In this document: piece by piece, positions 1,591 to 17,972 of the stretch
How positions within the stretch are numbered: position 1 is the stretch's first letter
Layout of the letters: the number at the start of each line of letters is the position of its first letter
DNA from: Roseiflexus sp. RS-1
GTDB taxonomy: Bacteria; Chloroflexota; Chloroflexia; Chloroflexales; Roseiflexaceae
Length of the DNA: 64,000 bases
NCBI RefSeq assembly: GCF_000016665.1
Contig: NC_009523.1
Coordinates: 5,145,501 to 5,209,500, forward strand
Direction of reading: 5' to 3'
Made by a program: the position numbers and the translations under genes
Notes under the pieces: model-generated
Told to the model about the DNA's origin: nothing
What the model saw: only the letters and a program-made list of their open reading frames with translations
Database searches by the model: none

Positions 1591-3150
1591 ATGGAACAGA
1601 TACCGGCGATCATGCGCAAAAACCTGGTGTTGATCATCACCCTGGCAGTCATGCTCATGCTCTTTGTTGCAGCCGCAAGCGGTATGAGCTGGCAGGATTT
1701 CGTCATAACCCTGTTGCGTGGTCTGGCAGTGGGAGCGTTGACATTCCTGGTGGCGTCCGGTTTTTCGCTTATCTTTGGGTTGCTCGACGTGCTCAATCTG
1801 GCGCACGGCACACTTTTCATGGTTGGCGCGTACATTGGCTGGACAGTGTATGTACGTCCTGATACATTTGTGGATATTCTGACGCCGCTTGCGCTGATCA
1901 TCAGTGGATTCACGCTGGGGGACGTATGGAGACTGCTGGCGCGGCGCGTACCGCAGTCGGGCGTGTGGAGGCGGGTGTTGCCGTGGGTGGCGATCATGCC
2001 CGGTGTGCTGATCGGCTTTGGGGTCATGCGTGGCTACCCGATTGCGTCCTGGAGTCTTGAGAATTATGCTGAAAGTCCCGTCACGTTTTCATTTCTCGCC
2101 AGTCAGGGGCAGCGCGTGATCCCTGCGCCTGCCACCTTTGGTGATGGCTCTCCGCTGATAGCATTCGGCGGGTTGATCCTGGCAAGTATGCTGGTAGCGT
2201 TTGGACTGACGCTGCCAGGGCAGAGCCACATCCATACAGCAGCACATGTATCGTGGCGTCATGGTGTGCCCTTTGCCAGTCTTATTGCGGGAGGGCTGGT
2301 TGTGTTTATCGTCAATGAGCCGCTCACCGCGTGGTTGTTTGCACTGGATACCAACTGGTTGTTCCTGATCGCAGTGCTGGCGGCAGTGTTGAGCGGTATG
2401 GGGCTTGGTGCACTGATGGAGTCGACATTGATCCGACCGCTGTATGTGCGCCCGATCTATCAGTTGATGCTCACTCTGGGGCTGAGCGCAATCGGGATTG
2501 AGATAGTGCGCGCGATCTGGGGGCGTCCCGAGTTCACCATGCCCAAACCGGCGCTGTTCGCCGGAAGCGGCGAGGGATGTCCGGCAGAGTCGCTCTGGCT
2601 GGCGCTGCAGAATAGTTGTTCGACGATGCTGTTCCAGGGTGGGCGCATTCGCATCTACAATGAGATGTTTATCCCCCTGGTCGGGCTGATTGTGTTGATT
2701 GCCGTGTGGCTGTTGCTCAGGCGCACTCGCCTTGGCATGATCATTCGCGCTGGCGTGCAGGATCGTGAGATGGTCGAGGCGCTGGGGATCAATGTGCGAC
2801 GGGTGTTCACAATGGTGTTTGCGCTGGGCGTGGGGTTGGCGGCGTTGGGGGGTGTGCTGGCGGCGCCGTCGATCGGGCTTTCCAACACGATGGGCGAAAG
2901 TTTTCTGCTCAATGCGCTTATTGCGCTGGCTATCGGCGGATTAACCAGTTACCCCGGCGCGGCAATCGGTTCGTTGTTGGTCGGAATGCTTCAGCAGTTC
3001 ATCATCAAGTACGGTCAGATTGGCATTGCCATCCCGTTGACCGGGATTGTTTTCAAACCTTCGCCGCCGCTGGTGCCCGCATCGACTATTCTGCTCATGG
3101 TGATCATTTTGCTCATTTTGCCCAACGGTCTGCTTGGCAGGAAGGAATAA
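1591..3150 (+). CDS. livH: branched-chain amino-acid type ABC permease LivH, enlarged
   Basis: Membrane permease of the LivH family. The N-terminal part (SGFSLIFGLLDVLNLAHG, residues about 57-74) and the C-terminal part (LNALIALAIGGLTSYPGAAIGS) carry the usual signatures of the channel subunit. The protein has 519 residues, whereas LivH is normally about 290-310. The extra length is an insertion of about 170 residues after the GAYIGW segment (residues about 85-255). It is itself largely hydrophobic, with several candidate membrane helices, and the canonical fold resumes at the ALMESTLIRPLY region. An AGAGG-like ribosome site precedes the ATG. It sits between livF and livM with spacings of 10 and 3 bases. 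Confidence 0.9.
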   Translation: MEQIPAIMRKNLVLIITLAVMLMLFVAAASGMSWQDFVITLLRGLAVGALTFLVASGFSLIFGLLDVLNLAHGTLFMVGAYIGWTVYVRPDTFVDILTPLALIISGFTLGDVWRLLARRVPQSGVWRRVLPWVAIMPGVLIGFGVMRGYPIASWSLENYAESPVTFSFLASQGQRVIPAPATFGDGSPLIAFGGLILASMLVAFGLTLPGQSHIHTAAHVSWRHGVPFASLIAGGLVVFIVNEPLTAWLFALDTNWLFLIAVLAAVLSGMGLGALMESTLIRPLYVRPIYQLMLTLGLSAIGIEIVRAIWGRPEFTMPKPALFAGSGEGCPAESLWLALQNSCSTMLFQGGRIRIYNEMFIPLVGLIVLIAVWLLLRRTRLGMIIRAGVQDREMVEALGINVRRVFTMVFALGVGLAALGGVLAAPSIGLSNTMGESFLLNALIALAIGGLTSYPGAAIGSLLVGMLQQFIIKYGQIGIAIPLTGIVFKPSPPLVPASTILLMVIILLILPNGLLGRKE

Positions 3151-3153
3151 GCG

Positions 3154-4239
3154 ATGACAACGTCCGGTTCTTCCTTCGTGCAACGGTATCGCATTGCACT
3201 GCTAACGCTGCTGGCGTTGGTTCTCCTGCCATTTGTTATCGGGCTGTTCGAGGGCGCGTCACCCTTCGAGGTGTGGTCGAACCAGAGCGGTATGTCCAGA
3301 TTTATTCAGGGATTGGCAATCGAGATCTTCATTCTGGCGCTGTATGCCCTGAGTTATGACCTGATCTTCGGTTTTACAGGCCTGCTGTCGTTTGGGCACA
3401 GTATGTTCTTTGCGGTTGGCGCCTACCTGACCGGTATCGCGCTTAAGAGTTTCGGGCTGAACCTGTGGCAAACCTTTGGCGTATTGATGCTGGCAGCTCT
3501 CGCGCAGGCGCTGTTGTTCGGCATTGTGCTGCCGCGCGTGAAGGGGATCACCTTTGCGCTGGTCACGCTGGGTCTGTCGAGCGTGTTCCATATTGTGGTC
3601 ATGTCGCGTGAACTGGGCGATTACACCGGTGCAGACGTGGGGTTGCAGGGGGTCATCATCCCTGATTTCATCAGCCCGGCTACGGAACGTCTCCGTCTGT
3701 ATTTTGTGACGCTCACGATACTGGTCGTGTTCTACCTGATCTACCGCCGATTCGTGGATTCGCCCCTGGGGCGGGTATGCAAAGCGATCCGCGAGAACGA
3801 AGGGCGCGCGCAGATGCTGGGGTATAACACGTTCCTGTTCAAACTGGCGGCGCTGATCCTCTCGTCTCTCACCGCTGCAATAGCTGGTGCGCTGCATACC
3901 ATCTATCAACCGATCGTCAGTCCCGACATCGCCGGGTTGGGTTTCACCGTCACTGCCCTGCTGATGATCCTGATCGGAGGCGTGGGCACACTCCACGGCG
4001 CGCTGGCAGGCGCAGCGATCTTCCGCCTGCTCGACTTCGGACTGCGGCGCTACCTGGGAGAGAGCGCCAGTTTTGTCAACGGCGCGATCTATGTGCTGAT
4101 TGTGCTCTTTCTTCCCTATGGAATTGTCGGAACGTGGCAACTCAAGGCGTCTCTCTCCATAGCGCGCATGCGCCAGGGTTGGCAGCGCTTACTGGAAATG
4201 GTCGGTGTAAACGTCGAACGTCGCGCATCCAGAGAGTAG
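3154..4239 (+). CDS. livM: branched-chain amino-acid type ABC permease LivM
   Basis: This 361-residue polytopic protein is the second channel subunit of the HAAT importer. The region FTGLLSFGHSMFFAVGAYLTG (near residue 75) and the cytoplasmic coupling segment SPLGRVCKAIRENEGRAQMLGYN (near 205) are family signatures. The latter contacts the ATPases. The ATG follows livH by three bases and has a good GGAAGGAA ribosome site. It ends the operon; 258 bases follow before the methyltransferase. The length is normal for the family or slightly long at the C-terminus. Confidence 0.93.
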   Translation: MTTSGSSFVQRYRIALLTLLALVLLPFVIGLFEGASPFEVWSNQSGMSRFIQGLAIEIFILALYALSYDLIFGFTGLLSFGHSMFFAVGAYLTGIALKSFGLNLWQTFGVLMLAALAQALLFGIVLPRVKGITFALVTLGLSSVFHIVVMSRELGDYTGADVGLQGVIIPDFISPATERLRLYFVTLTILVVFYLIYRRFVDSPLGRVCKAIRENEGRAQMLGYNTFLFKLAALILSSLTAAIAGALHTIYQPIVSPDIAGLGFTVTALLMILIGGVGTLHGALAGAAIFRLLDFGLRRYLGESASFVNGAIYVLIVLFLPYGIVGTWQLKASLSIARMRQGWQRLLEMVGVNVERRASRE

Positions 4240-4386
4240 CGGCATGATAAAGCCATCCGGTCAACATCCGAATGAGAGAGCATAAGAGAGCAAGAAGGCG
4301 AATGATCCTGCGACATCAGCATGCTCATGCCTGTGCTTGCCTGTGACGACAGACGATGTCGCGCCACCCTACTGCAACCGGCAACC

Positions 4387-4415
4387 TTGACGACTATTCT
4401 CGAACGTGATACAAA
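4387..4415 (+). promoter_or_regulatory. sigma70-type promoter candidate before the restriction-modification genes
   Basis: TTGACG (4387-4392) and TACAAA (4410-4415) are separated by 17 bases. The site lies about 80 bases upstream of the methyltransferase ATG. The rest of 4240-4485 shows no other signal I can support. Confidence 0.4.
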
Positions 4416-4452
4416 TGGGCTATCGTAATAGGGTGCAGAAAACAGGCATGTG

Positions 4453-4461
4453 TGGTAGAAT
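4453..4461 (+). promoter_or_regulatory. extended -10 element before the methyltransferase
   Basis: TGgTAGAAT is an extended -10 that would start a transcript near 4468, about 30 bases before the ATG at 4498. It matches the TGGTANNNT pattern seen before several genes in this window. Confidence 0.45.
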
Positions 4462-4497
4462 GTTTACACGTTTTCGTGTTCTATCTTGAGTCCGACC

Positions 4498-5685
4498 ATG
4501 ACCAATCTGACCTTCTACGAGTTCTTTGCTGGCGGCGGTCTTGCCCGCTTTGGTTTGGGCCGGCAGTGGACATGCCTGTTTGCCAATGACATCGATGAGA
4601 AGAAAGCGGAGGTCTACCAGCGCAACTTTTCCGGCGCTCCAGAGATGGTTGTCGAGGATATTCGTCACATCACGACTGCGATGCTTCCCGGTCGCGCCAC
4701 GCTGGCATGGGCATCATTCCCCTGTCAGGATCTGTCGCTTGCGGGGAAGGGCGGGGGGCTTCGCGCCGAACGCAGCGGCACATTCTGGCCCTTCTGGAAC
4801 CTGATCACGGCGCTCAACCGGGAAGGACGAGGCGTTCCTATCATTGCCATCGAGAATGTTGTTGGTCTCCTTACCTCAAATAACGGTCACGATTTCCAGG
4901 AGTTGATAACTGTTATTACTACGGAAGGATACCGCCTGGGCGCGATGGTTGTCGATGCGGTTCATTTCGTTCCCCAATCGCGACCAAGGCTTTTCATCAT
5001 CGCCGTCAAAGACCATCTGCCGATACCGGATGAACTCACCATGTGCACGCCGCACCCCATCTGGCATCCGATTCCGGTCGTTCGCGCGTATCGTCGCCTG
5101 TCGCCGTCGATGCGCGAAGGGTGGATCTGGTGGAATCTCCCTGTTCCCGATCATGCGCGGCTGCGGCTGCAGGACGTGATCGATCCAGAGCCGATCGGCG
5201 TGTCCTGGCATAGCCAGGAAGAAACGCTCCGTCTTCTGACACTGATGTCCCCGGTCAATATCGCCAAAGTACGTCACGCTCAGGCAACCGGTCGCCTGCA
5301 CATCGGCACGGTGTACAAGCGAACGCGCACCCAGAATGGCGTCAAGCGCCAGCGCGCAGAAGTTCGGTTTGATGGCATCAGCGGTTGTTTACGCACGCCT
5401 GCTGGCGGTTCCAGCCGACAGACCATCCTGGTCGTCGAGGGTGATACCATTCGCTCCCGCCTGCTTTCCGTGCGCGAAGCGGCGCGGCTTATGGGATTAC
5501 CCGACAGCTACTGGCTGCCGGAACGGTATAATGATGGGTATCACGTGATGGGCGACGCCGTTGCGGTGCCGGTTGTTTCCTGGCTGGAGACGCATATTCT
5601 GCGTCCGCTTGCAACAGGACGTGTTGAGAGCGCAGAGAGTGATAGATATGTCGACAAAAGAAATCATACCTTGTGTCTTATCTGA
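4498..5685 (+). CDS. DNA (cytosine-5) methyltransferase, type II restriction-modification
   Basis: This C5-cytosine methyltransferase of 395 residues carries the ordered family motifs. They are I (FFAGGG, residues 9-14, cofactor binding), IV (FPCQD with the catalytic Cys near residue 76), VI (IENVVGLL), VIII (QSRPRLFI) and a C-terminal motif X (YHVMGDAVAVPVV, with GDAV in place of the common GNAV). The target-recognition region between VIII and X is divergent and I cannot predict the recognition site. A TTG at 4486 would add four residues; I prefer the ATG at 4498. Its 3' end overlaps the next gene by 38 bases, and a Vsr gene follows. That makes a complete restriction-modification cassette with mismatch repair. 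Confidence 0.93.
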   Translation: MTNLTFYEFFAGGGLARFGLGRQWTCLFANDIDEKKAEVYQRNFSGAPEMVVEDIRHITTAMLPGRATLAWASFPCQDLSLAGKGGGLRAERSGTFWPFWNLITALNREGRGVPIIAIENVVGLLTSNNGHDFQELITVITTEGYRLGAMVVDAVHFVPQSRPRLFIIAVKDHLPIPDELTMCTPHPIWHPIPVVRAYRRLSPSMREGWIWWNLPVPDHARLRLQDVIDPEPIGVSWHSQEETLRLLTLMSPVNIAKVRHAQATGRLHIGTVYKRTRTQNGVKRQRAEVRFDGISGCLRTPAGGSSRQTILVVEGDTIRSRLLSVREAARLMGLPDSYWLPERYNDGYHVMGDAVAVPVVSWLETHILRPLATGRVESAESDRYVDKRNHTLCLI

Positions 5686-6511
5686 TGAGACAAGGCGTTT
5701 GATCGATGCGTATGCGCAAGCGCTCAAGAATCAAGCGCATATGATCGGCGATCATGGTTTGAGCGAGGAGGAGTTTTGGGCTTCGGGACTTTTTCGTGGC
5801 GCTATCGAGCGTCTTCGCGGACAACAGGCGGCTAGCATGGCTCAGAAGCGTCGATTCATCGAACGAGTTCTTGAATACCTGAAACAGAACAAAAGAATAG
5901 AGAGATGGGATTTCAGGGGCACTAGAGAGCGCCACGATTATGAAGTTCACATCGACGGTCGTATTTGTGTTTTTGAAGCAAAAGGATGTCTTGATGGCAA
6001 TAACACAAATATCTTCGAAAGACCCGCGAATGCAGACGAATTCATTCTCTGGTCACTCTGCCAGAATCCCGGCGCAGATCCGCGTCACAATGCCTGGTCA
6101 GGCATACATACCCGGCTAAGTGCAGAAATTATTAAAGAAGAAAAGCGTGTGGATGGATTGATTATATGGGATATGCTCTGTGGAACAAAAGGTCGCATCT
6201 GCCCGAAGTTGTCTCAAAATCGTGCGAAAGTAACTAATATAGGCGATAGTTTTTATGTTCCACCACCGTGTTTGTATCTCTTCCCTAGAACTGTACCAGA
6301 GGTTCGCACAAATCCTCGTCCAAACGTTTGGAAGATTGAGGAAGTTGCGTTTCTTAAGGTTCTTTACGATACATTTTCTTGCCAACCTGATGATGTGGTG
6401 GGGTTGAGTATAGAAGTGAGACAGAACGAAAATTATGTAGAAAGGCGCACAATTTTTGCTCGTAATGGAATAGAAATTGCTTCTTCAGATTGGACGAAGA
6501 TAAAGCGCTAA
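5648..6511 (+). CDS. probable type II restriction endonuclease (PD-(D/E)XK candidate)
   Basis: A protein of 287 residues that I do not recognise as a named enzyme. It is inferred to be the cognate nuclease from its place between a C5 methyltransferase and vsr. The sequence contains DYEVHIDGRICVFEAKG (residues about 97-113), which fits the D...ExK core of PD-(D/E)XK nucleases. The ATG at 5648 was chosen because the purine-rich GAGAG upstream gives a ribosome site and the overlap with the methyltransferase is then only 38 bases. The open frame extends back to 5561, but that part lies inside the methyltransferase. The second half of the gene is clearly richer in A and T than its neighbours, which suggests horizontal acquisition. 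Its C-terminal part has no feature I can interpret. Confidence 0.72.
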   Translation: MSTKEIIPCVLSDETRRLIDAYAQALKNQAHMIGDHGLSEEEFWASGLFRGAIERLRGQQAASMAQKRRFIERVLEYLKQNKRIERWDFRGTRERHDYEVHIDGRICVFEAKGCLDGNNTNIFERPANADEFILWSLCQNPGADPRHNAWSGIHTRLSAEIIKEEKRVDGLIIWDMLCGTKGRICPKLSQNRAKVTNIGDSFYVPPPCLYLFPRTVPEVRTNPRPNVWKIEEVAFLKVLYDTFSCQPDDVVGLSIEVRQNENYVERRTIFARNGIEIASSDWTKIKR

Positions 6512-10467: not shown

Positions 10468-11289
10468 TCAGCAGTCGATGAACTCAACCACCCGCTTCAC
10501 GAACTCTGACGGGCATTCGAGGTGCGGCGCGTGCCCGGCGCCCTCGATGACATGATGGGTCATCACCGGGCAGCGCGTGCACATGTCGCGTGCGATTACC
10601 GTAAACTTCTCATCCAGCGCACCGGTGATCAGCAGGGTCGGTATCGAAAGGCACGGCAGGTCGTCCCAAAACGACGGTTGCGCGCCCGTCCCCATGCTGC
10701 GGAGACTGGCTGCCAGCCCTGCCGGAGTGTTGCGCAGGCGCTGTGCGCGTAGCCGCTGCTGTACCGCTTCCGGCAGGCGCCGTTGACTCTCCCACAGCGG
10801 CAGTCGCTCCCATTCTTCCACAAATGCAACGATTCCGTTCTGCTCAATGCGAGTCGCCAGCGCCTCGTCAAGCGCACGCCGCGTGGCGCGTTCCACTTCA
10901 GTCGCCAATCCCGGCGATCCGCTTTCCAGGATCAACGTCCGCACCGCATACGGGTACAGCAACGCAATCCCCAGCGCCAGGCGCGCACCCATCGAATACC
11001 CGACCAGATGCGCTGGCGTGGCTCCGAGGTCGCGCAGCCGGGCGACAATATCGCCAGCGACCAGCGGCAACGTGCAGCGTGCCGGGTCCGGCGGCGCAGG
11101 CGTGCGTCCGTGTCCCGGCAGATCGATCCGGATCACCCGAAACCGGTGTGATAATTGATCGGTCACCTCCGCCCAACTCTCGCTGCTGCCGGTAAAACCG
11201 TGGAGCAGCACCAGCGGATCGCCAGCGCCGGTCTCAGTGACGTGATAGGAAATATCGGTCGCGGGTGAGGTTTCGATTGTGCTGCTCAT
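10468..11289 (-). CDS. alpha/beta hydrolase, MenH-like
   Basis: This 273-residue alpha/beta-hydrolase has the nucleophile elbow GYSMGAR, an oxyanion HGFTGSSESW loop, the acid region GALDEKF and the catalytic His in GAGHAPHLE. The combination resembles MenH (SHCHC synthase of menaquinone synthesis). Menaquinone is the expected quinone of this organism, but no other men gene is nearby, so the specific reaction is unproven. The start was set at the ATG whose first bases overlap the upstream stop (ATGA at 11286-11289), which implies translational coupling to the secreted CAP protein. An in-frame ATG at 11310 would add seven residues. Confidence 0.75.
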   Translation of the reverse strand: MSSTIETSPATDISYHVTETGAGDPLVLLHGFTGSSESWAEVTDQLSHRFRVIRIDLPGHGRTPAPPDPARCTLPLVAGDIVARLRDLGATPAHLVGYSMGARLALGIALLYPYAVRTLILESGSPGLATEVERATRRALDEALATRIEQNGIVAFVEEWERLPLWESQRRLPEAVQQRLRAQRLRNTPAGLAASLRSMGTGAQPSFWDDLPCLSIPTLLITGALDEKFTVIARDMCTRCPVMTHHVIEGAGHAPHLECPSEFVKRVVEFIDC

Positions 11290-12653
11290 CTGCGGGTTGT
11301 GAATTGCCATGTGACGTTGAAAGGTCGACCATCATAGGTTCCGGTGACCGTTGCTTCAATGGTCGTAAATGGCGGCAGCGCCTGAGCGGGTATGATAGCC
11401 ACGCCTTTGTGACCGGCAGGAAGGTTCGTTGTTGCAGAATGGGGCAGTGACATTCCTGACCCTGTGCGCAGGCTTACACTGCTGATAACAGGCGTCGGAC
11501 CAAAGTATGGCCAGAACAGGGTAATTGGCAACTGTATCGGAGGGACATCCTGCTGATCGCCTCCAGGATACCGTACTGGCCAACCGGGGAAGGTCGTATC
11601 CTGATCCAATCGAGCATGTGTCAGAACATCCAACCCGGCAGCGCTGACCCCTCTCGTTTGGTAAAATCCGAACCCAAAGGTCGGAGTCGTTGGATACAGC
11701 AACCAGGCCCGATGTCCAACCGACATCATCCAGCCATCTATCGCGTCCAGCGGTTTCCAGACGTTGCCCGAACCCAGCCAGACATTTCCTTTCTGGGCAC
11801 ATGTCTGCCCTGCTCCAGAAGCCCAGGGAAGCGACGGATTCTGGTCATGGGTCAGCACTCCGTTTTCCGCCATATAGCGCGCATGTTGAACACAATTGTC
11901 ATTCAAAGTCGGATCGGCAGTGACCGGCGGAACACCAGCACGGGCGCGATATGCATTGACCTGTGCGAGCCAGTCATTCGATGGGAGGGATGGTTGTTGC
12001 GATGCCTGCCCACTGTGCCGAGTTTCATTGCCCAGCAACCCCAACAAGACATGGTAAGGAGGAGCAAGTTCCGGATGCAACTCGAATCGCGCACGCTCGA
12101 ACCACTGCACCTGATACGTTTTGCCATCGCTCAGTGTTTCTGAAACAAGATCGCTCAACGGCAAACCGAAGAGCGCCAGACTCTCAGCCTCGGTCGTACC
12201 ACGCCGACCATCGAGTTCAAGTCCATTCGCCCGCCATGCAGCAAGAATATCCCCACACACATTGTGACCTGTCTCTGGAAAGAAACGGCATCCTGGTTGT
12301 GGCTGACTCTGCGGAAAGGATTGCCAGTCGCGTCCCATTTGAGAGAGACGCTCGGCGCCCAGTCTTCCCAGTAAGACATCGTAGGGCGGACGATTGCCTG
12401 GATGCAGTTCGAGGCGATTGCGCTCAAATTGCTGCGCGCGCACTATACGCCCTTCAATAGCCATGCCTTGCTCAGGTCCTGTGGGAAAACCAAACACCGG
12501 TAATCCGCCGTTCTGTTCCCAGAATGATCGTATGCGTCCTGAGATGCAAAAGCCGGTTTCAGAGAAGCAGCGTTCAGCACTCCGACCCGTTGCGTGAGGG
12601 ACCGTCGAGAAAAACGCCATTCCCGTCATGAGAAGGAGCAGAAAATATCGCAT
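11286..12653 (-). CDS. secreted protein: two LGFP-like repeats plus CAP/SCP domain
   Basis: This 455-residue exported protein has an N-terminal signal peptide (hydrophobic stretch 3-20). Two copies of a repeat follow at about residues 29-105 and 118-205, each with FxETGxxxxG, W..NGG...FGxP, FER.R.ELHP and VLLG.LG pieces. A CAP (SCP/PR1) domain spans about 225-345, with LAQVNAYRARAGVPPV, the QHARYMAENGVLTHDQ region and a later SVGHRAWLL. A beta-rich C-terminal segment starts near 370. CAP domains occur in secreted proteins of varied function. The same repeat cassette occurs in the products of 15417-16541 and 16749-17972, with other C-terminal domains. A GGGAGG stretch lies 13 bases before the ATG, rather far for a ribosome site. 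Confidence 0.82.
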   Translation of the reverse strand: MRYFLLLLMTGMAFFSTVPHATGRSAERCFSETGFCISGRIRSFWEQNGGLPVFGFPTGPEQGMAIEGRIVRAQQFERNRLELHPGNRPPYDVLLGRLGAERLSQMGRDWQSFPQSQPQPGCRFFPETGHNVCGDILAAWRANGLELDGRRGTTEAESLALFGLPLSDLVSETLSDGKTYQVQWFERARFELHPELAPPYHVLLGLLGNETRHSGQASQQPSLPSNDWLAQVNAYRARAGVPPVTADPTLNDNCVQHARYMAENGVLTHDQNPSLPWASGAGQTCAQKGNVWLGSGNVWKPLDAIDGWMMSVGHRAWLLYPTTPTFGFGFYQTRGVSAAGLDVLTHARLDQDTTFPGWPVRYPGGDQQDVPPIQLPITLFWPYFGPTPVISSVSLRTGSGMSLPHSATTNLPAGHKGVAIIPAQALPPFTTIEATVTGTYDGRPFNVTWQFTTRR

Positions 12654-12683
12654 ACGCAGATGTATACCTCCCTTTCTGTGCGC

Positions 12684-12692
12684 ATTATATCA
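12684..12692 (-). promoter_or_regulatory. extended -10 promoter for the CAP protein gene
   Basis: Read on the minus strand this is TGaTATAAT, a perfect -10 with the TG extension, 31 bases before the CAP gene start. No -35 is evident. The rest of 12654-12923 is the divergent regulatory gap before 12924. Confidence 0.5.
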
Positions 12693-12923
12693 CTGCGAAA
12701 TCAACTGCCGAAGCCCTGTATCCCGACGCTCACGCTGCGTGAAGCAACGACTACCCCAAATTGCGCAGGACGCGCTACAATAAGAAAATAACAAACACAC
12801 TATGCGCCACCGCAATGTCGCGGCGGATGAGAGCGTCGTTGTTCTCCACAGCATGGGTGCAGCGGCGCTGCGCCCTCCCGGCGCCAATCGCCGCCATTCC
12901 GGTGGCGTGCGGAGGCGCCTGCA

Positions 12924-13640
12924 ATGCGTATCAGGGTTAAAGAGTTTCCTCCGCTGTTCCGCGACCGACGCGAGGCAGGTATGTTGCTGGCGCGTCGGCT
13001 CGCGGCATTAGCCAACACTCCCGATCTGCTGGTGCTGGCGCTGCCGCGTGGCGGCGTACCGATTGCGTATGAGGTCGCGCGTGCGCTTCACGCGCCGCTC
13101 GATATTGTCCTCGTGCGTAAACTCGGCGTCCCCGGACATGCCGAACTGGCGATGGGCGCCATCGCGGAAGGCGGTGTGCGCGTCCTGAACCACGCAGTCA
13201 TCAGAGAACTTGGCATACCGTCAGACATCATCGAGCATATCACCACTGAAGAACAACGTATTCTCGAACAACGCAGACGCCTCTACCGCGGCGATCGGCG
13301 TCCGCCGACGGTTGAAGGCGCGCGTGTCATTCTCATCGACGATGGTCTGGCGACCGGGATGACCATGCAGGCTGCGATCGAAGCGGTTCGGCGGGGTAGT
13401 CCGGCCGGGATCATTGTGGCAACGCCGGTTGCTGCTCCTGAGAGTGTCGCGGAAATCGAACCGCTGGTGGATGAGGTTGTTGCGCTGGCGACACCTGAAT
13501 TGCTCTACGCAATTGGCATGTGGTACAGCGACTTCACGCCAACCAGTGATGAGGAGGTGCGCGCGCTCCTCGCCGAGGCGTTTTGCGGCTATGCACCGGC
13601 GCCTCGTTCCGATGAAGCGCTGGAACGAGGCGCCACCTGA
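12924..13640 (+). CDS. phosphoribosyltransferase family protein
   Basis: This 238-residue type I phosphoribosyltransferase fold has the PRPP-binding loop VILIDDGLATGMTM (about residues 134-147) and the N-terminal LALPRGGVPIAYEVA segment. The family is often annotated simply as 'phosphoribosyltransferase', and its substrates are not known. A GGAGG ribosome site lies eight bases before the ATG. Its final bases overlap the frame of the next gene, which has its own start 62 bases after this stop. The two genes are probably co-transcribed. Confidence 0.85.
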   Translation: MRIRVKEFPPLFRDRREAGMLLARRLAALANTPDLLVLALPRGGVPIAYEVARALHAPLDIVLVRKLGVPGHAELAMGAIAEGGVRVLNHAVIRELGIPSDIIEHITTEEQRILEQRRRLYRGDRRPPTVEGARVILIDDGLATGMTMQAAIEAVRRGSPAGIIVATPVAAPESVAEIEPLVDEVVALATPELLYAIGMWYSDFTPTSDEEVRALLAEAFCGYAPAPRSDEALERGAT

Positions 13641-13702
13641 TGCGATCCATGATGGCTGAATGGCTCGAAATCATGCGTCATCGTGGAATTCAGGAGGAAC
13701 GT

Positions 13703-14869
13703 ATGAATGTTCTGCTCAAAGGAGTATCACGCGAAGAAGTACGAGAACTGATCGAGCAGGGTGGGACGCCGTGGGTCTCGTTCTTCCTGGCGCCCTATCC
13801 GCCGGGTGAAACGCTTCAGCGTGCAGTTCAACTCGAAAATCTGTTGCGGCGCGCCGAAGCGGAACTGGAATCCGGTGGATATGAACGCGATGATATGCGT
13901 GCGATGCTGGCGCCGGTGTGGGACATGACCGATGCGCGAGCACTCGAAGCATACCAGGATGCGGGTCTGGCGATCTATGTCGCTCCTGGTCAGGTTCACC
14001 TCTACCAGTTGCCGCATCGTGTCAGCGATGCGGTGATGGTGGGGCAGCGTCCATACATCAAACCGTTGCTCATCCCGCGCCCGGCAACCGACTCGTTCTA
14101 TGTGCTGGCACTGAGCAAAAGCCGCGTGCGGTTGCTGCACGCCACACCGTCCGGCATCACGACAGTTCCGCTGCCCGACGCCCCCGAAGGACTTGAGGAT
14201 CTGCCGCAAACCGACCCGACTGGTCGTCAGGCGCAACGCCACGTCACCCGTTTGATGCGTGGCGGTGCAAGCGGCGCCATGTATCCGGGACATGGCGGCA
14301 ACATTTTTGACGAAAAAGCGGAGGTGCATCGCTATCTCCAGGCAGTAAGCAATGCTGTCGAACGCGCCATGAATCGCACCCGTGATCCGCTGGTGCTGGC
14401 GGGTGTGGAGTATATGGTCTCGATGTATCGCTCGCTGAACGGATATGCGCACATTGTCGATGGTCATATCAGCGGCAGCCCGGATCACCTGAGCGACGAA
14501 GCGTTATGTGAACGTGGCGCAGGTGTCCTGATGGATGACCTGAGTCGTCGCGCCACCGATGAGCGTGACCGCTTCGAAGCGCTGCTTCAGTCCAATCCGC
14601 CGCGTGCCAGCACGAATTTGCGCACCATCCTGCCCGCAGCGCACATCGGGCGTGTAGAGCGCCTCCTCATCGCCAGCGACCGGCAGGTCTGGGGGCGCTA
14701 TAACCCTGATGAGGAGACCGTCTCACTGCACGACGAGCCACTGCCCGGCGACGAAGACCTGCTGGATGTCGCCGCTCACCAGACGATCCTGCATAGCGGC
14801 GAGGCGATTGCAGTGGCGGCTGCCGAAATTCCCGGCAGCAACGGGATCGCAGCGGTCTTCCGCTATTGA
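13703..14869 (+). CDS. baeRF-type (bacterial archaeo-eukaryotic release-factor-like) protein
   Basis: This 388-residue protein resembles the bacterial relatives of eRF1/Pelota (baeRF families). The N-terminal part has SFFLAPYPPGETLQRAVQLENLLRRAEAEL, a middle beta-rich domain reads FYVLALSKSRVRLLHA, and the C-terminal part has an ILPAAHIGRVERLLIA element like eRF1 domain 3. An internal glycine-rich stretch (RGGASGAMYPGHGG) lies where release factors carry their catalytic loop. Whether it acts on ribosomes is unknown. The start at 13703 was chosen because an AGGAGG site (13692-13697) precedes it; the frame is open from 13640. It follows the phosphoribosyltransferase gene closely. Family membership is probable; the exact subfamily is not. 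Confidence 0.65.
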   Translation: MNVLLKGVSREEVRELIEQGGTPWVSFFLAPYPPGETLQRAVQLENLLRRAEAELESGGYERDDMRAMLAPVWDMTDARALEAYQDAGLAIYVAPGQVHLYQLPHRVSDAVMVGQRPYIKPLLIPRPATDSFYVLALSKSRVRLLHATPSGITTVPLPDAPEGLEDLPQTDPTGRQAQRHVTRLMRGGASGAMYPGHGGNIFDEKAEVHRYLQAVSNAVERAMNRTRDPLVLAGVEYMVSMYRSLNGYAHIVDGHISGSPDHLSDEALCERGAGVLMDDLSRRATDERDRFEALLQSNPPRASTNLRTILPAAHIGRVERLLIASDRQVWGRYNPDEETVSLHDEPLPGDEDLLDVAAHQTILHSGEAIAVAAAEIPGSNGIAAVFRY

Positions 14870-15416
14870 TGAAACCGGATACCAGCGCACGCCAGGTCGA
14901 AAGAAAGATAGTGAGAGACACAGGTCGTTCTGGGGTGTTCCTGGCGCGCTGGAACGGTGTGCGTCCCCGCATGCGCGGGCATCTCGCCTGCACGCAGCGA
15001 TACGACCCGTCACGGGAGCGAGGGCATCGTGCCCTCACCACTCCACGAATGCGGGACGCCCTCGCTCTGTGGCAAACAGCGCAGATTGGGAACGAACATC
15101 ACCGTATCGCGCGTCGTGTTCTACCAGATGTGATGTCATCGGCGAGTCGCCAAACGAGCGCTGCTACAGGACAGAACCTTATCCTCTTCACCCCCGGTTC
15201 AGCAGAATGCTCTGCATCGGTGGAGTTCGTTGAGCGCCCACGGGGGCGCGCGCCAGCGCCGACAGAGAAGTGCGAAGCACTGCTCTCATCATCTTTTCAT
15301 CTTCGACGCATCCTGCCAGCGTTCTACCACGCATCTTCCATTCCTCGTATGCGCGCACAGGCGTAGACTCGAGGTGAACAGCGGCATATTGACGCCGCTG
15401 AAGAAAGGAGAAAACC
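14870..15416. other. gene-free region with inverted repeats
   Basis: I find no credible gene in these 547 bases. GAGCGAGGGC (15016-15025) is matched by its inverse GCCCTCGCTC (15058-15067). A nested alternative hairpin, GAGGGCA-tcg-TGCCCTC, lies at 15020-15036. The 3' part carries a dispersed repeat at 15066-15141. The secreted-protein gene downstream has its own AAAGGAG ribosome site. Confidence 0.6.
15066..15141 (+). repeat. dispersed repeat, copy A
   Basis: This segment aligns with 48732-48805. The shared pieces are CAAACAGCG...GATTGGGAACGAAC and, about 25 bases later, TACCAGA.GTGAT. The two copies sit in gene-free regions 33 kb apart in the same orientation and look like decayed members of one intergenic repeat family. 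Confidence 0.6.
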
Positions 15417-16541
15417 ATGAAACGCGGGATCCTTCTGGTCACCCTTCTGCTGGCAATTACCGGTGCGCTTGTTGCAGCAGCGCCAGCAAGTGCGGCGGAA
15501 CGGCAGCGATGTTTCCCGGAAACCGGCTACTGCGTCTCCGGCGCGATCCTGCGCTACTGGGAGCGCAACGGCGGTCTGCCCGTATTCGGCTACCCGATCA
15601 GCGAACTGCGGATCGAGCAGGTCGAGAACTGGAGCGGACCGGTGCAGTGGTTCGAGCGTGACCGTCTCGAGGATCACGGCTCGATCGGCGTCCTCGCCGG
15701 TCGGTTGGGCGCCCAGGCGCTCGAATACCAGGGACGTTACTGGCAATCGTTGCCGCGCCCGACATCGATCCCGAAGGAATGCCGGTTCTTCCCGGAGACC
15801 GGACACTCGCTCTGCGGCAAGTTCCTTGAGTACTGGCAGCGCAACGGCGGCTTGATGCGCTTCGGTTATCCGATCAGCGAACCGATGACCGAAACGCTGG
15901 CGAATGGTGATGAACTCTGGACCGGCACGGTGCAGTACTTCGAGCGACGACGGATGGAGTACCATCCCGAACTGGCAGGAACGCGCTACGAGGTGCTGCT
16001 TGGGTTGCTGGGGCGCGATATATACACCGCCGTTAGCGACCGCTGCGCTCCACCGGCGCCGTTCCTCGGTCCTACCACCCGCGCATATCCGAACATTCTT
16101 GGGTGTCCATCGCCATTCCCGAAACTGGCGGTTCCGGCAGCATCGCAGCGCTTCGAGCGCGGCGCCATGTACTGGGTTGCCAACACGGGTGACATTGCGT
16201 CCTGGCAGGCTGGCAATATCTGGGTGGTCTTCTACGACAACGCGCGCGGCTCGCTTGTCTGGCAACTCCACCCCGATTACTGGCGTGAAGGGGAGCCGGT
16301 GAGCGGCGGGATGACGCCTCCGCCGGGTCTGTTCGAGCCGATCCGCGGGTTCGGCAAACTGTGGCGCGAGAACCAGTTCGTCCGCGAGACGCTCGGTTGG
16401 GCGGTTGAACCGGAAAGCGCCGACAAAGCTGTGGAGCAGTACTTCCGGGGCGGAGCGTTCGCCATCTATCGCATGAATACTGACCGGATCTACATTATGA
16501 AGCCGGATAACACGGCAGAGGACATTCAGCGCATTCGCTGA
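15417..16541 (+). CDS. secreted LGFP-like repeat protein of unknown function
   Basis: This 374-residue protein has a clear Sec signal peptide (cleavage expected after the PASA region, about residues 24-27). Two repeats of the W..NGGL..FGYPISE / VQ.FER.R.E.H / G.LG type follow, near residues 32-110 and 120-200. Each opens with CFPETG or FFPETGHSLCG. The remaining 160 or so residues have no domain I recognise, although WRENQFVRETLGWAVEPE and EQYFRGGAF resemble a degenerate third repeat. A strong AAAGGAG ribosome site precedes the ATG. Extracellular, perhaps cell-wall-associated, by analogy with LGFP repeats of actinobacterial envelope proteins. Confidence 0.75.
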   Translation: MKRGILLVTLLLAITGALVAAAPASAAERQRCFPETGYCVSGAILRYWERNGGLPVFGYPISELRIEQVENWSGPVQWFERDRLEDHGSIGVLAGRLGAQALEYQGRYWQSLPRPTSIPKECRFFPETGHSLCGKFLEYWQRNGGLMRFGYPISEPMTETLANGDELWTGTVQYFERRRMEYHPELAGTRYEVLLGLLGRDIYTAVSDRCAPPAPFLGPTTRAYPNILGCPSPFPKLAVPAASQRFERGAMYWVANTGDIASWQAGNIWVVFYDNARGSLVWQLHPDYWREGEPVSGGMTPPPGLFEPIRGFGKLWRENQFVRETLGWAVEPESADKAVEQYFRGGAFAIYRMNTDRIYIMKPDNTAEDIQRIR

Positions 16542-16696
16542 GCGGGAGTAGTCAGGAATCGGCGGGGGGGTGGGCGTCCGACGTGATGCTCGCCCCCTCT
16601 GTTCTCATGCAGACGGAGCGTCCATACTCGTTACGCAGTGGTAGCGGTGCATTGCGCATTCACCATACCGTAACCTCATACGCAGCCTGAAAGATG

Positions 16697-16702
16697 TATA
16701 AT
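16697..16702 (+). promoter_or_regulatory. -10 element before the L,D-transpeptidase gene
   Basis: A perfect TATAAT, 46 bases before the ATG at 16749, with no good -35. If it is used, an in-frame GTG at 16707 would be at or before the transcript start, which supports the ATG. Confidence 0.4.
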
Positions 16703-16748
16703 TGAAGTGATACAACGTCCTGGCGCTGAACGAAGGGCGAAGAGCGTT

Positions 16749-17972
16749 ATGAACCGGCGACTGCACCACCCGCACCTGATCATGACCGGCATCGCAATCC
16801 TGATCGCAACAGCCATTGCCGCGCCGATCGAACTGCGCGCGCGGCAACGTCCCGCAGTCGCCGATTTCGCCCCGCCGCTCCCGGCTTCCGAGGCGCAGGC
16901 AGTCGTCGCTGCCGCGCGCGCCGCCGAACGGATGCAGCAGCAAAGCGCAGCGGAAGCAGTTCCGCTGCCGGCAGTACAAAATATGTACTTCGCGTCCTCC
17001 GGCTTTCACATCAGTGATCGCACCGGTTTCCTGAGTTTCTGGCGCAGGAACGGCGGTGAACTGATCTTCGGCTACCCGATCAGCGGCGAACTGATTGAAG
17101 ACGGGCGGATCGTGCAGTACTTCGAGCGTGCACGCTTCGAGTACCATCCAGAAAACCTGGGCACCGAGTATCAGGTGATGTTGTCGCTCCTCGGCAACGA
17201 GATCACCCAGGGGTACGATTTCCCCGACGGTCAACCGACGCAGGGGCGGCTCTACTTCCCCGAAACCCGCCAGACGCTTGGCGGGAAGTTTCTCAGGTTC
17301 TGGCAGAAACGCGGCGGTCTGCGCATCTTCGGCTACCCGATCAGCGAGCCGTTCGAGGAAATCAGCCCGATCGACGGTCAGGTGCGTATCACCCAGTATT
17401 TTGAGCGCGCCCGTTTTGAATATCATCCCGAACAGTTGCCCGCGTTCTACCGTCAGATGGAACGGGCGAACGGGATCATATTATCCGGGCTTCACGAAGT
17501 GCAGCTGGGCGATCTGGGACGCCAGGCGATGCAGCGCCGTGGCCATACCCCGCATGCGGTCGGTCCCATGCCCGGTGCGCCCGCCTGGTCGCCCAAACTG
17601 TTCGAGCGCCGGATCGAAGTTAATCTGACGCAACAGATGCTGACCGCTTTCGAGGGGGATGTGCCGGTCTATCGCGCTCCCGTCGCAACCGGTCGCGATG
17701 GCTTCAACACGCCAGCCGGATCGTTTGCCATTTACTACAAACTGCCGAGGCAAACGATGACCGGTTCGGCTGGCGGCGAGTCGTGGTATGTCCCTGATGT
17801 GCCATGGGTTCAGTATGTCGTTGGCGGCGTGGCGCTCCACGGCACCTACTGGCACGATGCCTGGGGCACCGGAGTGCGCATGTCGCATGGGTGTATCAAT
17901 CTGAATATCGATGATGCGGAATGGCTCTATCACTGGGCGGACATTGGGACGCGCGTGGATGTCGTGTATTGA
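16749..17972 (+). CDS. L,D-transpeptidase (YkuD) with two LGFP-like repeats
   Basis: This 407-residue envelope protein has an N-terminal hydrophobic helix (about residues 10-27), which may be a signal anchor. Two of the repeats found in the neighbouring secreted proteins follow at about 78-160 and 165-255. A C-terminal YkuD domain occupies about 285-407. The catalytic motif HGTYWHDAWG...MSHGCINL is intact, with Cys as nucleophile, so it should form 3-3 peptidoglycan cross-links or attach proteins to the wall. The frame is open from a GTG at 16707; I prefer the ATG. It lies downstream of the related secreted protein with a 207-base gap. Confidence 0.87.
   Translation: MNRRLHHPHLIMTGIAILIATAIAAPIELRARQRPAVADFAPPLPASEAQAVVAAARAAERMQQQSAAEAVPLPAVQNMYFASSGFHISDRTGFLSFWRRNGGELIFGYPISGELIEDGRIVQYFERARFEYHPENLGTEYQVMLSLLGNEITQGYDFPDGQPTQGRLYFPETRQTLGGKFLRFWQKRGGLRIFGYPISEPFEEISPIDGQVRITQYFERARFEYHPEQLPAFYRQMERANGIILSGLHEVQLGDLGRQAMQRRGHTPHAVGPMPGAPAWSPKLFERRIEVNLTQQMLTAFEGDVPVYRAPVATGRDGFNTPAGSFAIYYKLPRQTMTGSAGGESWYVPDVPWVQYVVGGVALHGTYWHDAWGTGVRMSHGCINLNIDDAEWLYHWADIGTRVDVVY

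Follow-up and report, generated by a model that had tools for sequence, protein, structure and literature searches.

The DNA analyzed here, a stretch of 64,000 nucleotides referred to as the window, belongs to the 5.8-Mb single-contig genome of Roseiflexus sp. RS-1, a member of the Roseiflexus group with metagenome-assembled genomes of Roseiflexus as its closest named relatives. Three open reading frames (ORFs) of the window possess a pair of similar repeat units, here named the cassette, in front of different C-terminal parts. These are a CAP-domain protein of 455 residues on the minus strand (11286..12653), a protein of 374 residues on the plus strand (15417..16541), in the following called the second protein, and a YkuD L,D-transpeptidase of 407 residues, also on the plus strand (16749..17972, with an alternative GTG start at 16707). 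A hydrophobic N-terminal segment was present in all three of them, and judged by their sequences they look exported. In the second protein, this signal-peptide-like region (residues 1-27, 15417..15497) contained a helix from residue 2 to 20 in the structural model.

The repeat consensus was RYFPETGHSVSGRFLEYWERNGGLAVFGYPISEELTETVSEGRTVLVQYFERARLELHPENAAPYEVLLGRLGAEL, with two copies in each of the three ORFs and pairwise identities of 34-55% among the six units. Profiles constructed from two of the proteins recovered both units of the third one with domain E values of 1e-19 to 6e-31, and beyond the six units no match below E 1 was found with these leave-one-out profiles among 237 ORFs of the window and 2370 shuffled sequences. 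In the CAP protein, unit 1 (residues 28-102, 12348..12572, minus strand; E 2e-30 with the unit profile) was followed by a unit 2 with an internal insert (residues 123-211, 12021..12287, minus strand; 2e-31). On the plus strand, the units of the YkuD protein were located at 16983..17204 (E 2e-24) and 17250..17528 (3e-26), the latter again with an insert, which sits ahead of the last strand. The second protein contained unit 1 at residues 31-101 (15507..15719, with invariant Cys32 and Cys39) and unit 2 at residues 123-202 (15783..16022, with invariant Cys122 and Cys133), both on the plus strand; unit 1 was assigned by the unit profile and a three-dimensional match to the LGFP domain of MytA, and unit 2 by the unit profile and the model. 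Cassette units showed an FGYP motif, an elongated hairpin of the form Q-x-F-E-R-x-R-x-E, and VLLGxLG as their tail, had many invariant structural residues, and often possessed Cys pairs positioned for disulfides. The positions G58/P60 and G150/P152 were invariant or nearly so, meaning that the G and P of the LGFP motif were kept.

The CAP domain (residues 230-335, 11649..11966, minus strand; PF00188, 3.8e-17) reached 63.6 bits compared to a Pfam cut-off of 21.1 and belongs to the CAP superfamily. It reads GNVW and apparently lacks the glutamate normally present in bacterial ENIA-type motifs, so that its metal site may be altered. The YkuD catalytic domain (17607..17963, plus strand; PF03734, 1.6e-26, 94.1 bits) contained an intact HG...SHGCxN motif beginning at residue 364. 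An initial annotation, made from the sequence of the window, had described three secreted proteins with two repeat copies each, followed by a CAP domain, an unknown domain, and a YkuD domain, and this arrangement could be confirmed with respect to the number of units and to the CAP and YkuD partners. No catalytic domain was found in the second protein with Pfam or in the AlphaFold model.

Kinship, spread, and inheritance of the cassette

The only Pfam family that recurrently matched the cassette was LGFP, which was found, below its cut-off, in 8 of 14 cassettes at E values up to 1 (best 1.1e-4), and six of the 14 matched the phage endolysin family PHROG 2998 (best 2e-7). The AlphaFold model of the second protein, calculated with 45 natural homologs, had a predicted local distance difference test score (pLDDT) of 92.8. 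Its unit 1 could be superposed on the LGFP domain of MytA from C. glutamicum (6swz; Z 8.1, 1.9 Å, 59 residues, 22% identity) and on 6sx4 (Z 7.0), with the next unrelated structure at Z 4.6, and shared with MytA a helix plus an antiparallel sheet of three to four strands. These recurrent matches and the superposition of the modeled unit show that the cassette is a diverged relative of LGFP; its second hairpin is longer and its copy number is two with few exceptions. Profile matches to designed triosephosphate isomerase barrels in the PDB were discarded, since they consisted of four internal repeats with about 5 bits each in the linker region only.

A kinship to LGFP had been suspected in the initial annotation, and it was supported by the structural match to MytA and by the Pfam and PHROG matches. 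That the module might already have been described with a defined ligand turned out to be half true: the parent LGFP repeat is described with its ligand in C. glutamicum, whereas the branch in Chloroflexota is not. For LGFP in Chloroflexi, the literature search yielded only a virome paper that counted LGFP endolysins.

About 17 proteins of strain RS-1 bear the repeat unit. It was present in all 20 genomes of a first survey, comprising RS-1 and 19 relatives, where between 13 and 50 stretches per genome matched, and the cassette occurred in 130 of 251 genomes sampled evenly across the Chloroflexota, which is about half of them, with many copies per genome in the Chloroflexales. Since scoring in this larger sample was limited to 13 candidates per genome, its copy numbers are lower bounds, and the apparent restriction of the cassette to the Chloroflexota comes from pattern-seeded searches. 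Exactly two units were found in 136 of 141 gathered proteins and one unit in the other five. The start-to-start distance of the two units had a median of 94 residues (91-98, 10th to 90th percentile), and the cassette was mostly N-terminal but in some cases C-terminal. A short ORF near 4394037 of the RS-1 genome (3759-4202 of the region opened there) with a single unit, ending at an in-frame TGA, is possibly a decayed copy.

Partners of the cassette in RS-1 were CAP, YkuD (two proteins), a sortase, a subtilase (S8), GH5, another glycosidase, and an M14 carboxypeptidase; M23, GH99/71, S9, a nuclease, and a sugar dehydrogenase were added by the relatives, and some cassette proteins were without a recognised enzyme domain. 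On a tree of 126 units and 75 columns, which was poorly resolved, the state changed between first and second units 10 times compared to 42.6 times for shuffled labels. The pair was therefore formed early and inherited as one unit. The position of the cassette at the N or C terminus changed about eight times on the cassette tree, no fewer than expected by chance for ten C-terminal rows, and this loosely supports repeated re-attachment of the cassette to either protein end.

Within the genus, orthologs of the second protein shared 85-95% identity; a YkuD ortholog (83-84%) adjoined them in two genomes and a CAP ortholog (89%) in a third one. The proteins of the window were thus inherited as orthologs within the genus and recent shuffling was not seen. 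The earlier idea of a module moved between effectors fits the depth of the phylum, with its many partners at both protein ends, but not the recent history of these genes. A mobility by phages or plasmids was rejected, since the cassette was absent from the phage records and viral contigs searched and plasmid matches were limited to two replicons of large size, from Chlorohelix and Thermomicrobium. In one Roseiflexus relative, the gene for the second protein was tandemly duplicated (3786-4943 and 5151-6284 of the region opened). A contig labeled Candidatus Gracilibacteria, from a sample set that also yielded Chloroflexaceae, encoded a protein closely related to the second one and was probably mis-binned.

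The C-terminal domain of the second protein and kinase ectodomains

In the second protein, the C-terminal domain (residues 206-374, 16032..16538, plus strand, with invariant Cys210 and Cys230), which had been annotated as unknown, exceeded the Pfam LGFP cut-off of 22 bits, with 27.3 bits for the protein and the best stretch at residues 242-264. When a profile from 44 homologs was compared to all PDB sequences, MytA appeared at the top (6swz, 4.8e-5; 6sx4, 9e-4), with the next entry at 0.9. As judged from these comparisons, the domain is a pair of LGFP-like repeats.

When genomes were searched with this region, two groups were retrieved: proteins related to the second protein, and longer ORFs with about 630-725 residues. 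Eight of these longer ORFs were opened, each from a different genome of the same order and one of them from RS-1, and all encoded transmembrane Ser/Thr kinases. In these, the kinase domain and a single hydrophobic segment are followed by a Pro-, Thr-, Ser-, and Ala-rich linker of 101-153 residues and then by two LGFP-like repeats. Alignment of the C-terminal domain with these kinase ectodomains by hhalign gave a probability of 99.9 and an E value of 3e-37 over 150 of 168 columns at 31% identity. The C-terminal profile was found by hmmsearch in all eight kinases (2.5e-17 to 7e-40) but in none of 400 shuffled sequences, and one kinase relative reached 31.2 bits with Pfam LGFP in two stretches. 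The C-terminal domain of the second protein is consequently of the kinase-ectodomain type. A kinase-ectodomain query matched 41 of the 251 Chloroflexota genomes, and some of these matches were secreted proteins and not kinases.

The RS-1 genome contains 27 kinase domains. One of them belongs to the LGFP type, a transmembrane Ser/Thr kinase at about 4529117-4531147 (complement 2618-4648 of the region opened) with the LGFP-like repeat pair instead of PASTA repeats outside, and another one possesses three PASTA repeats. A position of the LGFP kinases within a division gene cluster was considered and rejected: neither a shared gene cluster nor a division gene cluster was found around them, and their neighbors were glycosyltransferases and unrelated genes. 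The literature searched contained nothing on LGFP kinases. Two cassette proteins of RS-1 were also encoded next to kinase genes, a glycosidase with a C-terminal cassette adjoining the kinase with three PASTA repeats (both in the region 3260268-3264780) and a subtilase with cassette (831394-831942) adjoining another kinase (832871-833617).

Proposed role at the cell wall

To understand their biological meaning, these results have to be combined with what is known about LGFP domains and the chloroflexotal cell envelope. The LGFP domain of MytA interacts with peptidoglycan-arabinogalactan, as deduced from mutation and pull-down experiments summarized in PMC11299179 with reference to doi 10.1111/mmi.14492, and for a phage endolysin, LGFP has been suggested to be the portion that binds the wall (PMC3314691). 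Chloroflexi do not possess a lipopolysaccharide (LPS)-containing outer membrane and their peptidoglycan usually contains L-ornithine (PMC3368417); for Herpetosiphon, an L-ornithine peptidoglycan-polysaccharide complex is mentioned there with its reference 32. The cassette is likely to be a duplicated, divergent LGFP branch that serves as a non-catalytic wall anchor. Exported proteins would carry this anchor at either end, and it would keep wall-remodeling enzymes such as YkuD, CAP, M23, and sortase, together with secreted hydrolases, on the cell wall, with a peptidoglycan-polysaccharide complex as the most likely ligand. The second protein is most likely a two-module wall binder or scaffold, because it lacks an enzyme domain and combines the cassette with a second LGFP-like module of the kinase type.

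Several observations weigh against this interpretation. In the window proteins, the cassette remained below the Pfam LGFP cut-off of 22 bits, with 18.4 bits for the CAP protein and no match for the YkuD protein. Chloroflexota are not known to have the mycolate-arabinogalactan wall that is the LGFP target in corynebacteria. The C-terminal domain modeled alone (pLDDT 94.1) had no clear match to a PDB structure, with a best Z of 4.7 and without MytA 6swz or 6sx4 in the list, so that its link to LGFP rests on the sequence comparisons; this outcome was not taken as evidence for a novel fold. A profile-profile comparison of a cassette unit with the C-terminal domain gave a probability of 10-14%, indicating that both kinds of repeats are only distantly alike. 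Finally, many partners are glycosidases and proteases, and a substrate-binding role would fit them, too.

This last point leads to the alternative that the cassette is a carbohydrate-binding module holding enzymes on external substrates or exopolysaccharides and not on the own wall. The glycosidases (GH5, GH99/71, GH42-like) and proteases among the partners act on outside substrates, and the LGFP repeats of MytA have small binding sites lined by semi-conserved aromatic residues (PMC11299179). This explanation is nevertheless unlikely, since the cassette is also attached to sortase, YkuD, M23, and CAP, which are usually located at the wall, and to proteins without any recognised enzyme domain, and since wall binding was found for the only LGFP domain whose ligand has been tested.

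A structural spacer or a unit for protein-protein dimerization, in both cases without a polysaccharide ligand, would agree with the strict two-copy rule and the many invariant structural residues, which fit a rigid stalk such as that formed by the MytA repeats (PMC11299179), but a cassette at the extreme end of a protein has nothing to space on one side and wall binding is the precedent for LGFP, making this quite improbable. An enzymatic or other new activity of the second protein's C terminus, for which the initial annotation had seen the best prospects, was rejected as highly improbable despite a confident model without clear PDB match and a weak resemblance to the folds of class IV adenylate cyclases, with Z 4.0-4.5 for alignments of about 107 residues, because only Cys5, Cys25, and Gly44 of the domain were invariant in 44 homologs, which contained no conserved catalytic set of an acid, His, or Lys, and because the domain is homologous to kinase ectodomains and, by sequence, to MytA LGFP.

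With the wall anchor as the preferred explanation for the cassette, a further possibility arises from the kinases. The LGFP-type domain of the Chloroflexales might function as a wall-sensing kinase ectodomain, and secreted proteins such as the second protein might compete for, present, or buffer its ligand. This idea is tentative and rather doubtful, and it is speculation that the second protein acts as the ectodomain's partner or competes with it. If true, it would mean that a signaling system for the status of the wall has been built from LGFP-type modules in place of PASTA.

The LGFP repeat itself was already known, with a ligand in corynebacteria. New are a divergent two-unit branch, which is abundant in Chloroflexota but escapes curated families when their cut-offs are applied, and the finding that the second protein's C-terminal domain also forms the extracellular portion of a set of kinases. 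Because the cassette remains below the Pfam and NCBIfam cut-offs, many exported proteins of the Chloroflexota are annotated as "hypothetical" or named by their partner domain, and recognition of the cassette as an LGFP relative would assign them a likely cellular place. It also provides a handle on how bacteria with a peptidoglycan-polysaccharide wall but no LPS outer membrane keep enzymes at their surface, and the domain that secreted proteins share with kinase ectodomains suggests a ligand for wall sensing that can be tested for.

Comparison with known systems

The cassette and the LGFP repeat (PF08310) of the MytA/PS1 C-terminal domain have a helix with a small antiparallel sheet behind it, the G and P of the motif, the tandem arrangement, and the occurrence in exported proteins in common. 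The cassette does not have the layout of an LGFP array, however: such arrays contain three to five copies, about five in MytA, at distances of about 54 residues, whereas the units in the Chloroflexota are about 94 residues apart and nearly always two. The combination of FGYP, extended hairpin, and tail, often with the Cys pairs, is likewise a property of the cassette and not of LGFP in MytA, and most cassettes score below the Pfam cut-off. In actinobacterial phage endolysins, in the region covered by PHROG 2998, the LGFP repeat likewise forms a targeting module at the end of enzymes that act on the wall (PMC3314691). The phage protein Barnyard gp39 contains three sequential LGFP motifs, unlike the two-unit cassette.

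Some YkuD L,D-transpeptidases are anchored to the wall via LysM, SPOR, or PG_binding_1 modules. The two YkuD proteins of RS-1 follow the same plan of a catalytic YkuD domain with a non-catalytic wall-targeting part, and the presumed targeting part in this case is the LGFP-like cassette. Similarly, the LGFP kinases share with the PASTA Ser/Thr kinases of the PknB/PrkC type a kinase domain, one transmembrane helix, and extracellular repeats, but their extracellular part is LGFP-like where the others possess PASTA, with a separate PASTA kinase existing in the same RS-1 genome.

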